A stretch of DNA of 35,279 nt from Planctomycetota bacterium (GTDB taxonomy: Bacteria; Planctomycetota; Phycisphaerae; FEN-1346). The position numbers and the translations under genes were made by a program. A model generated the notes under the pieces. The model did not search any database and was not told the DNA's origin. It was given only the letters and a program-made list of their open reading frames with translations. Every line of letters starts with the position of its first letter. The first letter of the stretch is position 1. The stretch covers positions 1 to 35,279 of the forward strand of contig VGYT01000010.1 in NCBI GenBank assembly GCA_016872895.1. The letters are read 5' to 3'. This document shows positions 24,001-34,758 of the stretch, piece after piece.

Positions 24001-24028
24001 GCATCCGCAATCCGCAACCCGCAATCGG
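24001..24028. repeat. CAATCCGCAAC-type dispersed repeat
   Basis: GCATCCGCAATCCGCAACCC and GCAATCGGG show three successive CCGCAA(T/C)C-type units. It overlaps nothing coding and belongs to the family also seen at 24549-24580, 24627-24690, 27586-27619, 33059-33069 and 34706-34716. Confidence 0.5.
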
Positions 24029-24552: not shown

Positions 24553-24690
24553 GATTGTAGATTCCAGATCGCAGATTGCGGCGGCAGCGGCGCTCCGCCC
24601 GCCGCCGGCCGTTCAAGCCCCAAGTTTGGAATCCGTGATCTGCAATCCTCAATCTTCAATCTACAATCTGCAATCTGAAATCTGCAATCC
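24549..24690. repeat. AATCTGCAATC-type repeat cluster
   Basis: Two blocks, 24549-24580 and 24627-24690, are built of (C/A)AATCTGCAATC or GATTGTAGATTCC-type 10-11-base units in opposite orientation (TAGATTGTAGATT versus CAATCTACAATCTGCAATC), separated by about 45 unrelated bases. The two arms could pair into an imperfect hairpin. The region lies between the response regulator and the DUF2064 gene. Confidence 0.65.
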
Positions 24691-30876: not shown

Positions 30877-32166
30877 GTGCGCGTAACGCTTCAACTGGCG
30901 CTGGACCTCCTGGACCTGGAGCGTGCCCTGCGCATCGCCGATGCGGCCGTGCCGCAGGGCGTTGACTGGGTCGAGGCCGGCACGCCACTCATCAAGAGCG
31001 AGGGCCTCGACGCCGTCCGCGCCCTGAGGGAGCGGTTCCCCGGCCGCAAGATCGTGGCCGACCTGAAGACGGCCGACGCCGGCCGCGTCGAGATGGAGGC
31101 AGCCGCCAAGGCCGGGGCCGACTACGCCGTCGTCCTCGCCGCCGCCAGCGAACCGACCATCCGCGAGTGCATCGAGGTCGGCCGCAATTACGGCCTCGGC
31201 ATCGGCGTGGACCTCCTGGGCATCGAGGACCCCGAACCGCTCCTGGGGCGCCTGGCCGACCTGGGCGTGGCGTTCCTCTCGGTCCACTGCCCCATCGACG
31301 TGCAGATGTGCGGCGGCGGGCCGTTCGACCTGGTTGCGCGGCTGGCGAAGGCGACGGCCATTCCGCTGGCGGCCGCCGGCGGGCTGAACTCCGAGACGGC
31401 CCCTCGCGCCGCCGCCGCCGGGGCGACCATCGTCGTCGTCGGCGGGGCCATCACCAAGGCCCACGACCCCGCCCGCGCCGCAGCCGACATCCGCCGCGCA
31501 CTCGACACCGCTGCACCCGTGCCCACCGAACTCTTCCGCCGCGCGGGGCCGGAGGGCGTGCGCGAAGTCCTCCTTCGCGTCTCCACCGCGAACCTGAGCG
31601 ATGCCGCACACCACCGCCCGTGCATCACGGACCTTAGGCAGATTACGCCGGGGGCCAAACTCGTCGGCCCGGTCCTTACGGTCCGCACCGCACCGGGCGA
31701 TTTCGCCAAGCCGGTCGAGGCCATCGACCATGCCGCGCCCGGCCAGGTCATCGCCATCGACGCCGGCGGCGCCCCGCCGGCCGTGTGGGGAGAACTCGCC
31801 AGCGAAAGCGCCGTCCGGAAGAAACTCGCCGGCGTCGCCATCGACGGCGCCATCCGCGACACCGATGAAATCCGCCGCCTGGCCTTCCCGGCCCACGCCC
31901 GATGCGTGTGCAGCCACGCGGGGTATCCGAAGGGCTTCGGCGAGATCGGCGGCCCCATCCGGCTGGCAGGCGCGGAGGTGATGCCGGGCGACTGGCTCGT
32001 CGGCGACGCCGACGGCCTCGTGGTCCTCGCGCAGGAGCGGGTCGTGGAACTGGCGAACCGCGCCCAGGACGTCCTGGAGGCCGAGAACCGCATGCGCGCC
32101 GAGATCCAGGGCGGCCGCACACTCAGCCAAGTCGCCTACCTCCAGAAATGGGAGAAGAAGCGCTGA
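30877..32166 (+). CDS. 3-hexulose-6-phosphate synthase fused to RraA-like domain
   Basis: A 429-residue fusion starting at a GTG after AAGAGGG. Residues 1-210 are an OMP-decarboxylase-suprafamily barrel matching hexulose-6-phosphate synthase: QLALDLLDLERAL, VEAGTPLIK, VADLKTADAG (the Asp-x-Lys-x-x-Asp site), VHCPID, AAGGLN and VVGGAI phosphate loop. Residues 215-420 are RraA/HMG-CHA-aldolase-like: TDLRQITPGAKLVGP, WGELAS (metal or catalytic Glu), IDGAIRDTDEI (Arg-Asp), and GDWLVGDADGLVVL. The synthase joins formaldehyde to ribulose-5-phosphate or runs in reverse to make ribulose-5-phosphate. The same two-domain protein is known mainly from archaea. No separate 6-phospho-3-hexuloisomerase is in view. 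The partner domain may act on the keto-sugar product rather than RNase E. Confidence 0.88.
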   Translation: MRVTLQLALDLLDLERALRIADAAVPQGVDWVEAGTPLIKSEGLDAVRALRERFPGRKIVADLKTADAGRVEMEAAAKAGADYAVVLAAASEPTIRECIEVGRNYGLGIGVDLLGIEDPEPLLGRLADLGVAFLSVHCPIDVQMCGGGPFDLVARLAKATAIPLAAAGGLNSETAPRAAAAGATIVVVGGAITKAHDPARAAADIRRALDTAAPVPTELFRRAGPEGVREVLLRVSTANLSDAAHHRPCITDLRQITPGAKLVGPVLTVRTAPGDFAKPVEAIDHAAPGQVIAIDAGGAPPAVWGELASESAVRKKLAGVAIDGAIRDTDEIRRLAFPAHARCVCSHAGYPKGFGEIGGPIRLAGAEVMPGDWLVGDADGLVVLAQERVVELANRAQDVLEAENRMRAEIQGGRTLSQVAYLQKWEKKR

Positions 32167-32241: not shown

Positions 32242-32261
32242 ACACATTTTGAGCAATCGCC

Positions 32262-33056
32262 ATGCTTATTATCGCCGAGCGCATCAACGCCGCGCGCAAG
32301 CGCATGGCCGCGGCCTTCGCCGCCCGCGACGCCGCAGCCCTCCAGGACGAGGCCCGCCGCCAGGCCCAGGCCGGGGCCGACTACATCGACGTCAACGCCG
32401 CCCTCTCGCCCGATGCGGAATACGACCTCATGGCCTGGGCCGTTGACGCCGTCCGGGCCGCCACAGACAAGCCCCTCGCGGTCGATTCGGCCAACCCCGC
32501 GGCCGTGCGGGCGGGCCTTCAGCGGTTGCCGCGCGGCTCGGCCATCCTGAACTCCATCAGCGGCGAGGAATCTCGCCTGGCAGCCATGCTGCCGCTGGCC
32601 GCAGAGTTCCAGGCCCGCGTCATAGCCCTGGCGATGGACGATTCCGGCATGCCCGCCACGGCCGCCGACCGCTGGCGGGCGCTCGGCAAAATCCTGGCCG
32701 CCACCGACCGGGCGGGCATCCCGCGCGACCGCATCCTTATCGACCCGCTCGTGCGCCCCGTGGCCACCAGCCCCGAGCAGGCGGCCGAGTGCCTGCGCAT
32801 GATCCGCGAAATCCGCGAACGGGCCGGCGGCGCGGGCGCGGTCGTCGGCCTGTCGAACATCTCGTTCGGCCTGCCCTCGCGGCGGCACCTGAACCGCACG
32901 TTCCTGGCGATGGCCGCCGCCGCCGGCCTCTCCGCAGCCATCTGCGACCCGCTGGAACCGGAACTCATGGCCGCCGTCCTGGCCGCTCGCTGCCTGACGG
33001 GCACCGACGCCTTCTGCATGAACTACATCCTCGCGCAGCGGGCGGGAAAGTTGTAG
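32262..33056 (+). CDS. Pterin-binding methyltransferase (MeTr/AcsE-like, DHPS-type barrel)
   Basis: A 264-residue DHPS-like barrel with methyltetrahydrofolate:corrinoid methyltransferase signatures: IAERINAARK at the start, GADYIDVNAAL (pterin-binding Asp/Asn), LAVDSANPAAV, LNSISGE, VIALAMDDSGMP, ILIDPLVRP and VGLSNISFGLP. The family moves a methyl group from a reduced pterin to a corrinoid protein. No corrinoid subunit is adjacent, so the acceptor is elsewhere or the reaction differs. The ATG at 32262 has only a weak ribosome site. Following queD-like and hexulose-phosphate synthase genes, it fits a C1-transfer neighbourhood; planctomycetes are known to carry tetrahydromethanopterin-linked C1 genes, but no cofactor-specific gene is seen here. 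Confidence 0.85.
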   Translation: MLIIAERINAARKRMAAAFAARDAAALQDEARRQAQAGADYIDVNAALSPDAEYDLMAWAVDAVRAATDKPLAVDSANPAAVRAGLQRLPRGSAILNSISGEESRLAAMLPLAAEFQARVIALAMDDSGMPATAADRWRALGKILAATDRAGIPRDRILIDPLVRPVATSPEQAAECLRMIREIRERAGGAGAVVGLSNISFGLPSRRHLNRTFLAMAAAAGLSAAICDPLEPELMAAVLAARCLTGTDAFCMNYILAQRAGKL

Positions 33057-33058
33057 CA

Positions 33059-33069
33059 ATTGCGGATTG
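33059..33069 (+). repeat. Left arm of inverted repeat bracketing the low-GC cassette
   Basis: ATTGCGGATTG; its exact reverse complement is at 34706-34716. It begins right after the methyltransferase stop codon. Confidence 0.65.
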
Positions 33070-33082
33070 AGAAACGCGCTTC

Positions 33083-33111
33083 TTGACAGTCGGCCAGAGA
33101 TTTGCCATCAT
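33083..33111 (+). promoter_or_regulatory. Promoter of the low-GC cassette
   Basis: Perfect TTGACA (33083-33088), 17-base spacer, CATCAT (33106-33111). A leader of about 67 bases precedes the first ATG; AAGGTGAG lies next to it. Confidence 0.6.
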
Positions 33112-33184
33112 GGTTAGGGGGCAGGTAGGTCGATAGAGTGTGTGCGAGTGATGGCTGTAGTGTTGTGCGTGCGCAAGGTGAGAA

Positions 33185-33799
33185 ATGGGCTTCAACCTGC
33201 CGCATCTTGAGAAAACCACTTGCCTGAACCTAACGGTCTGTGGCGAAGTGAAGGACCGCGTATGCAAGGCCCGGCTTGCCAAAGCAAGGGTTATGGTGGC
33301 AAAGTACCACAGTGGTCACAAGACCGGCTACTTGAGGGTAATGCCGAGGAACTTAGGCAAACACTTGCATGTCGATTGTGCACGTAGGGAATTCTTCGCC
33401 GAGAGTGAGAGTAAACTCCCTAAGGTGACTCAGTCCAAGGCCAAAGCGTTGCAAGTCCTGGAAGCCTGCTGTGGCTCAAACATAGACGCAACGGTGGCTG
33501 GCTACTTCCGCCTGGATTCGCACAAGCTTCCTGAGCGGGGAATCATTCGCTCCCTTTCAACCGAGACGGGAAGTGCCGGTCTACGAGTGAGGTTGACAGC
33601 CGGGACCCTATCAGTTTCCGGCGCGCCAATAACAACTGTTCGCTGGGCCGTCCGTGGCAAGAAAGAACGTATGTTGCTTCAAGTTGTAGGTGAAAGATCA
33701 TTCACTGTCTCCGAGACTTATCTCGAAGAAGCGTTGCAGTGGATTGGCACAATGTTTCAGAAGTTCATATTGGGAACACCCGGCAATGGCGACAGGTAG
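33185..33799 (+). CDS. Unknown 204-aa protein, first gene of cassette
   Basis: I do not recognise this protein. It begins at ATG 33185 directly after AAGGTGAGAA, tight spacing for a ribosome site. Residues 10-30 contain three cysteines (TTCLNLTVC, VCK) and the middle has an EACCG pair. Residues 75-95 are lysine-rich (SKLPKVTQSKAKALQ). The second half looks beta-rich (LRVRLTAGTLSVSG, TTVRWAVRGKKERMLLQVV) ending in an amphipathic helix. No signal peptide or transmembrane segment is seen. Base composition is clearly lower in GC than all upstream genes, pointing to transfer. It overlaps the next gene by 14 bases, so the two are probably translated together. Confidence 0.7.
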   Translation: MGFNLPHLEKTTCLNLTVCGEVKDRVCKARLAKARVMVAKYHSGHKTGYLRVMPRNLGKHLHVDCARREFFAESESKLPKVTQSKAKALQVLEACCGSNIDATVAGYFRLDSHKLPERGIIRSLSTETGSAGLRVRLTAGTLSVSGAPITTVRWAVRGKKERMLLQVVGERSFTVSETYLEEALQWIGTMFQKFILGTPGNGDR

Positions 33800-34337
33800 G
33801 CTCTCGGATCCCCACAGGCAGGAATTCTTGCCCCCGGCCGAGGACCCTGGTTGGGAAGAACCCGAGGCGATGTGCGAGTGCGCGGTTGGCATTGCCGGCA
33901 GGCTGAGCCCGGTGGGCCGGGAGGAACCCTCGCCTGCACAGTTCCGGCAGGTACTGAATGACCTGCTCGGCAAGTGGCGCGAAGCAATAACATTGGATGT
34001 CATCCAAAGTGAACTGGTCATGCTCAAGGAAAAAGTTGCCTCTTTGGAGCAACACAGGCCGCTTGTGGTGCCCCTCGAAACTCTGGCACCTGAGCCTTAC
34101 TGTCTGGTCGCTCCTATTTCGGTGGTCGTGCGCGCGGAGCAGGACGAGTACGTTGCATCTTGGTATGAGGCCAGTCTAGCCGCGTCTGGTTGCACTCCCG
34201 AAGAGGCTGTTGCCAATCTGAAGGACATTATCGTTGCCGTATATGAATCCCTTCGAAACCACGGCGAAGAGCGGATGGGCCCCGCACCTTTGCGGCAATA
34301 CCGCCTTCTGACGAAGTACATAGCCAAGAGCGATTAA
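33786..34337 (+). CDS. HicB-like protein with N-terminal coiled coil
   Basis: A 183-residue protein. I chose ATG 33786 because the earlier in-frame part lies wholly within the preceding gene. Residues 1-55 are acidic/proline-rich; 60-95 contain a heptad-like helix (ITLDVIQSELVMLKEKVASLEQH), probably a coiled coil. Residues 100-165 resemble HicB/UPF0150 antitoxin-type domains: ISVVVRAEQDEYVASWYEASLAASGCTPEEAVANLKDIIVAVYESL. The C-terminal tail has PLRQYRLLTKYI. There is no obvious ribbon-helix-helix DNA-binding segment, so autoregulation is uncertain. It lies one base upstream of the HicA-like gene, as an antitoxin-toxin pair would. Confidence 0.75.
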   Translation: MATGRLSDPHRQEFLPPAEDPGWEEPEAMCECAVGIAGRLSPVGREEPSPAQFRQVLNDLLGKWREAITLDVIQSELVMLKEKVASLEQHRPLVVPLETLAPEPYCLVAPISVVVRAEQDEYVASWYEASLAASGCTPEEAVANLKDIIVAVYESLRNHGEERMGPAPLRQYRLLTKYIAKSD

Positions 34338-34338
34338 C

Positions 34339-34617
34339 GTGGCGGTAATAAGCAAGCAGATTGCTCAAGCAATAGCCAAGAAGCTCGGGGCTGTTATCAA
34401 TGAGCGCCCCGGTAAAGCGCATGACCTGGCTAAGGTGTACCACGAGAACAGGCTTGTGGCGCAATTCGGCTTACGCAGGGGCTCGAGTAGGAATCTCGGA
34501 CACGACCACGTGCCCAGTCAGATCTTTGTAGGGCCCCATCAGGCGCGCCTCCTCGGGCAGTGCCCGCTATCAAGAGATGACTGGGTGGACATAGTCCGGG
34601 GCAAGGGCCTACTCTGA
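34339..34617 (+). CDS. HicA-like small protein (putative toxin partner)
   Basis: A 92-residue protein beginning at a GTG one base after the previous stop, so probably translationally coupled. It starts with a helix (SKQIAQAIAKKLGAVI) and beta-type segments (RLVAQFGLRRGSS), then LGHDHVPSQIFVGPHQARLL with a His-Asp-His cluster, and ends in a helix (SRDDWVDIVRGKGLL). The helix-strand pattern and size fit the double-stranded-RNA-binding-like HicA fold, but the typical HicA Gly-Ser-His-His motif is absent; the conserved histidines may be catalytic. The family is recognisable as a HicB neighbour of unknown function rather than a proven mRNA interferase. Confidence 0.7.
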   Translation: MAVISKQIAQAIAKKLGAVINERPGKAHDLAKVYHENRLVAQFGLRRGSSRNLGHDHVPSQIFVGPHQARLLGQCPLSRDDWVDIVRGKGLL

Positions 34618-34705
34618 GTTTCTGCACACGCGCTGGCCGGTTCTTCGGTCATAGTGTTCCTTCCAGAATGCAGGCTCATGCCCGCTCCCCCGCTTGTCCA
34701 GCCCG

Positions 34706-34716
34706 CAATCCGCAAT
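34706..34716 (-). repeat. Right arm of inverted repeat bracketing the cassette
   Basis: CAATCCGCAAT, the exact reverse complement of 33059-33069. It sits between the HicA-like gene and the mcsA promoter. The same word family occurs at 24001-24028. Confidence 0.65.
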
Positions 34717-34729
34717 GCGCGCCGCTTGG

Positions 34730-34758
34730 TTGACACGCCCCCCTTTATGGTCTATCAT
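34730..34758 (+). promoter_or_regulatory. Promoter of the mcsA-like gene
   Basis: Perfect TTGACA (34730-34735), 17-base spacer, TATCAT (34753-34758): the closest sigma70-like match in the window. It gives a leader of about 29 bases holding the AAGGGGA ribosome site. Confidence 0.75.

Follow-up and report, generated by a model that had tools for sequence, protein, structure and literature searches.

A low-GC three-gene cassette in a Planctomycetota genome as a candidate tripartite HicBA-type toxin–antitoxin module

A contig of a Planctomycetota bacterium (GCA_016872895.1, VGYT01000010.1), of which we analysed a stretch of 35,279 nucleotides (hereafter the window, meaning that whole stretch), carries three tightly packed genes whose base composition departs from that of their surroundings. 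An earlier note, made from the sequence alone, took the last two for a HicB/HicA-like antitoxin/toxin pair, left the first unrecognised and suggested a three-component toxin–antitoxin (TA)-like or defence module. The question raised by this locus is whether the first gene belongs functionally to the pair and, if so, what it might do for it.

A low-GC cassette between the arms of a hairpin repeat

The features of the locus are as follows.

33057–34720, + strand: whole low-GC cassette of three co-directional genes, seen as a drop in GC and GC3; gene order the same in L010 and L007
33059–33069, + strand: ATTGCGGATTG, left arm of a hairpin repeat dispersed through the host genome, an exact inverted repeat with 34706–34716
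33083–33111, + strand: promoter-like site TTGACA-17-CATCAT with TG before the second hexamer, 10/12 consensus matches
33185–33799, + strand: gene 1, 204 aa, proposed to serve the antitoxin as a dedicated chaperone or sensor
33786–34337, + strand: gene 2, 183 aa, ATG at 33786, candidate antitoxin of the HicB-like type, extended N-terminally by ~60 residues
34339–34617, + strand: gene 3, 92 aa, starting with GTG, candidate toxin remotely similar to HicA
34706–34716, − strand: right arm CAATCCGCAAT of the dispersed host hairpin repeat, the cassette lying between the arms

The GC content falls from ~0.73 at 32250–33000 to 0.53–0.58 at 33150–34650 and rises again to 0.62–0.69 downstream, the low-GC stretch spanning 33057 to ~34690. 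GC3 is 0.60, 0.64 and 0.67 in genes 1, 2 and 3, respectively, versus 0.91 and 0.83 in the flanking genes. Genes 1 and 2 overlap by 14 bp, and a gap of 1 bp separates genes 2 and 3, so that GC, GC3 and the ORF coordinates bear out the layout first described. All three frames are real genes, because homologues with matching frames and gene order exist in a different taxonomic order and in a different phylum. Upstream, the cassette adjoins a gene for a pterin-binding enzyme. The downstream neighbour carries a UvrB/UvrC motif, and a TTGACA-17-TATCAT site of its own lies at 34730–34758. The promoter that the earlier note had assigned to the cassette is indeed present as a site. Three such sites were observed in the region against 0.7 expected from shuffling, a modest excess, and the role of this site as the cassette promoter is plausible rather than proven. 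Farther upstream in the window, a gene at 30877–32166 fuses OMP decarboxylase/HUMPS-type and RraA-like domains.

The cassette is bracketed by the exact 11-bp inverted repeat ATTGCGGATTG / CAATCCGCAAT, whose ends lie within 4 bp of the previously proposed cassette limits. A pattern search of the 5.07-Mb assembly returned 87 exact copies of ATTGCGGATTG versus 0 for the reversed control pattern. The hairpin repeat is intergenic and built of arrays of 7-bp units (GCGGATT) in opposing arms; further copies lie at 24008–24025 and 24643–24674 of the window and in L051–L060. We considered that the 11-bp inverted repeat might represent the cassette's own terminal repeats, and rejected this since the repeat is dispersed host-wide. 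In the ten hairpin elements that were read, the arms are 39–124 bp apart, versus 1636 bp around the cassette. Most simply, the cassette would have entered an intergenic hairpin element and split its arms, and its acquisition is best read as recent and horizontal.

Recurrence of the cassette and of the pair

Taken singly, the proteins of genes 1–3 matched nothing in the libraries scanned (Pfam, NCBIfam and PADLOC). With gene 3 as the entry point, relatives were found in planctomycetes and in one Verrucomicrobia MAG, and a profile made from gene 3 added four further distant pairs from the same phylum (L017–L020, hereafter the intermediate family). All three genes occur in the same order in the window, in Thalassoglobus neptunius KOR42 (L010, L004), which shares the phylum Planctomycetota with the host genome, and in the Verrucomicrobia MAG (L007). 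The other 10 of the 13 loci, namely L005, L006, L008, L009, L011, L012 and the intermediate family, carry the pair without gene 1, and gene 1 was not found elsewhere in their genomes.

We then searched for gene 1 with its own profile, which is built on three sequences and could miss very divergent orphans. It found no genome beyond the three known in partly overlapping samples of 392 genomes from the phylum, 338 and 177 from the Verrucomicrobia side, 170 from the Thalassoglobus order, 179 from the host's own class and the 12 pair genomes. Viral contigs and phages (searched with genes 1 and 3) and plasmids (genes 1, 2 and 3) yielded no relatives either. Tabulated against the pair, homologues of the 204-aa protein therefore occur only together with it, a count in which two of the three gene 1 loci were themselves found through gene 3. 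Sequence conservation of gene 1 is low: the window protein is 23% identical to the Thalassoglobus copy over 155 aa (BLASTP E 4e-8) and 30% identical to the Verrucomicrobia copy. As gene 1 is only 22–30% identical across the full cassettes, the linkage is either old or repeatedly selected.

The three-component idea of the earlier note thus gains two more full cassettes in distant genomes and no orphan gene 1 in the sample, yet most loci have the pair alone. This predominance of the pair (10/13 loci) would fit a HicBA-like TA of just two genes, with gene 1 as independent cargo, e.g. an anti-phage gene in its own right that makes use of the same operon and mobility, and so would the lack of a recognised domain in gene 1. 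However, gene order, tight spacing and the neighbour of gene 1 are shared by all three distant loci, and the sampled genomes hold zero orphans of gene 1. We regard independent cargo as a rather improbable reading, also in light of the antitoxin extension described below.

Genes 2 and 3 as a probable remote HicB/HicA-like pair

Gene 2 aligned with HicB in hhalign at 94% with a score of 43.5, the best of 200 shuffles reaching 17.6, and the partial RNase H domain of HicB was recovered in this comparison. Conversely, a gene 2 HMM run on the ORFs around Pfam-type HicA genes picked out the adjoining HicBs, with a best E of 1.4e-5 for a gene next to HicA in L064. The description of gene 2 as HicB-like, as first proposed, therefore stands, and its assignment as a HicB-like antitoxin candidate is supported at the level of sequence profiles. 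Scans with Pfam, NCBIfam and PADLOC detected no helix-turn-helix (HTH) or ribbon-helix-helix (RHH) DNA-binding domain in it.

A HicA-like nature of gene 3 gained indirect support through the intermediate family, but none from direct profile comparison or a fold search. The HicA model PF07927 matched neither gene 3 nor 8 core relatives nor 3 members of the intermediate family, and the gene 3 core family compared directly with HicA gave 1.8% in hhalign, which is noise level. The core and intermediate families aligned end to end at 96%; between the intermediate family and HicA the value was 77% over 69 collinear columns, with a score of 30.2 (best of 200 shuffles 16.8). The AF2 model of gene 3 (pLDDT 88.9) has helix 6–15, strands 19–21, 28–35 and 38–46, and helices 66–74 and 79–88, i.e. 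an alpha-beta-beta-beta-alpha-alpha order; a Foldseek search of this model against the PDB returned zero significant matches. His28 is invariant in 13/13 members and starts the strand 28–35, near the second strand start where the conserved active-site His is expected; it is equated with the HicA His by way of the intermediate alignment, and we consider it a candidate catalytic residue. The core family also carries a conserved RRGSxxDxGHD motif of its own, for which no counterpart was mapped in HicA. Membership of gene 3 in HicA is accordingly rated as probable, not proven.

These results leave some room for a pair that is not a TA of the HicA kind, with gene 3 encoding some other small protein, RNA-binding or regulatory, whose partner is HicB-like. 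The noise-level direct comparison, the structure search that returned no HicA and the motif that cannot be mapped to HicA would all suit it. Against it stand the intermediate family, which bridges the core and HicA over the full length with the His conserved, a topology and length like those of HicA with added C-terminal helices (cf. Class 8 HicA, PMC10865869), and the HicB-like partner itself. We judge this the least probable of the readings considered here.

The four pairs L017–L020 are HicBA-like, escape Pfam detection and bridge the gene 3 family and HicA, and they possibly represent an undescribed HicA branch. HicA_toxin matches are abundant in some Planctomycetota genomes (13 in G088, 9 in G004 and 8 in G003). 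A PADLOC match of the L006 relative of gene 3 to AbiEii (E 4.8e-5) was dismissed, as it covers just 25 residues of the first helix and the other members scanned do not show it.

Gene 1 and its coupling to the antitoxin extension

Gene 1 is a member of an undescribed protein family, as judged from its sequence, with no matches in Pfam, NCBIfam, PADLOC or the PDB. Its AF2 model is weak (pLDDT 69, pTM 0.64) and indicates a mixed alpha/beta protein with no obvious HTH or RHH, for which no PDB fold match was obtained at E ≤ 0.001. None of the outcomes that the earlier note would have taken as refuting its three-component hypothesis was observed: in the genomes sampled, homologues of gene 1 always accompany the pair, no unrelated family gave a confident match, and the position of gene 1 beside the pair is not random. 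A SecB-like identity is unsupported, as the Pfam model PF02556 had zero matches in 9 genomes, among them all three gene 1 carriers, and hhalign against E. coli SecB gave 0.1%, a comparison of low power with a single-sequence target. An internal duplication was likewise considered, because the model repeats an E-H-E-E-E-H pattern, and set aside, as the two halves share no sequence signal. A BglI-like Pfam match of one gene 1 member (E 0.04) and EVH1-like PDB matches (E 0.2) are at chance level. Viral fold matches of the model to A0A515MGR4 (E 7.6e-5, TM 0.36) and EsV-1-53 (E 8.8e-4, TM 0.30) were also put aside, both being uncharacterised and the model being of low confidence.

Gene 1 is also tied to the pair through gene 2. 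In the three gene 1 loci, 93–107 residues precede the LAPEP column of gene 2, versus 33–53 in the ten loci without gene 1. Gene 1 and this N-terminal extension are thus both present or both absent in 13/13 loci (Fisher p = 0.0035, a nominal value that ignores relatedness). The three extensions are not similar to one another beyond chance. Trees built from gene 3 and from the gene 2 core both join the window's pair to the pair-only locus L005 (supports 85/94 and 89/92, moderate), apart from the other two gene 1 loci. L005, the closest relative of the window's pair, has neither gene 1 nor the extension, which suggests that the two were acquired or lost jointly. That the presence of gene 1 tracks the extension of gene 2 is a further point against independent cargo. 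Taken together, the sequence comparisons support the operon structure, the HicB link of gene 2, the remote HicA link of gene 3 and the coupling between gene 1 and the extension.

The coupling could also be read in terms of transcription, with gene 1 as a regulator of the operon that the gene 2 extension recruits as a co-repressor or operator binder. Gene 1 is promoter-proximal, gene 2 revealed no DNA-binding domain, and HicBs without such a domain are known, their regulation being an open question (PMC10865869). However, the low-confidence gene 1 model shows no obvious HTH or RHH, gene 1 has no Pfam DNA-binding match, and the pair-only loci manage without it. A regulatory role of this kind therefore seems improbable to us.

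Genomic settings and a proposed mechanism

The Thalassoglobus neptunius copy of the cassette is inside a prophage structural cluster (L049 1199–19223) with portal, capsid, neck and minor tail genes. The Verrucomicrobia copy is flanked by remnants of a type ISP restriction–modification gene, one from the coupler and one from the C-terminal specificity domain (L007 1820–2788 and 4315–4902), with the intervening part missing, an arrangement that may also reflect misassembly of the MAG. The settings of all three full cassettes suggest mobility, and the prophage and the broken restriction–modification (R-M) gene suggest defence; together with the repeat element in the window, these contexts fit a mobile defence module. 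HicA-type toxins are suspected anti-phage effectors (PMC10865869).

Our preferred explanation, to which we give about an even chance, is a horizontally acquired tripartite HicBA-type TA module in which gene 1 is the dedicated partner, a chaperone or sensor, of an extended antitoxin. Gene 3 would be a remote HicA-type RNA-cleaving toxin with a dsRBD-like core and an extra C-terminal helix, and gene 2 a HicB-type antitoxin that binds it through the partial RNase H-like domain. Gene 1 would act on the N-terminal extension of the antitoxin, most likely preserving the fold and stability of the extended protein in the role of a chaperone or sensor. If gene 1 were lost or titrated, e.g. by a phage protein, the toxin would be freed and growth would stop. 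We infer the toxicity, its neutralisation, the chaperone or sensor role and the anti-phage function; by analogy with known toxin–antitoxin–chaperone (TAC) systems and CmdTAC, the extended HicB-like antitoxin would have gene 1 as its guard. A bolder version, which we put forward tentatively, makes gene 1 a non-SecB chaperone, or a sensor of phage, to which a HicB antitoxin has become convergently addicted via an N-terminal extension; this would be a second kind of tripartite TA, borne on prophages and mobile cassettes of Planctomycetota and Verrucomicrobiota. If confirmed, chaperone-style toxin control would extend beyond SecB-like proteins. For the control of HicBs lacking a DNA-binding domain, a directly testable case is offered by a third protein whose presence or absence follows that of one antitoxin segment.

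Comparison with known systems

With canonical HicAB/HicBA modules, the cassette shares the partial RNase H domain of gene 2 and, in gene 3, the alpha-beta-beta-beta-alpha order of the predicted model and the conserved His. It differs from them in lying below Pfam and NCBIfam detection, in the extra C-terminal helix of gene 3, in the third gene and in the extended antitoxin. Of the fourteen HicA contexts that have been catalogued, none has three genes in one operon with the third protein encoded separately (PMC10865869). The nearest is Class 8 hicBA, which is bicistronic, with a large multidomain HicB of 331–356 codons and a HicA of ~95 aa with added helices (PMC10865869). The window's cassette resembles Class 8, compared here by description only, in placing hicB before hicA, in the size of its HicA-like protein and the extra C-terminal helices, in a HicB fold at the C-terminus after additional sequence, and in having no recognised DNA-binding domain; unlike the single large HicB of Class 8, it encodes two separate proteins of 204 and 183 aa. 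A search for a Class 8-like long HicB near 18 HicA matches gave a 417-aa ORF before a HicA-like ORF in L065, where no ORF fits the gene 1 profile.

In TAC systems, which include HicAB types, a variable antitoxin extension imposes the need for a chaperone (PMC5105189), and CmdTAC senses phage through its chaperone, which the capsid captures so that the toxin is released (PMC11618068). The cassette shares with TAC its three genes and a variable antitoxin extension found only alongside the third protein (3/3 versus 0/10 loci). Unlike in TAC, gene 1 has no detectable SecB homology, the extension is N-terminal rather than C-terminal, and the third gene comes first in the operon. The known addiction domains are C-terminal. 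N-terminal grafts of the TAC antitoxin extension also work on model proteins (PMC5105189). Because gene 2, at 183 aa, falls short of the single 331–356-codon HicB that defines Class 8, and no SecB-like chaperone of the TAC type is recognisable in gene 1, we file the cassette as a variant HicBA module that may work like TAC.
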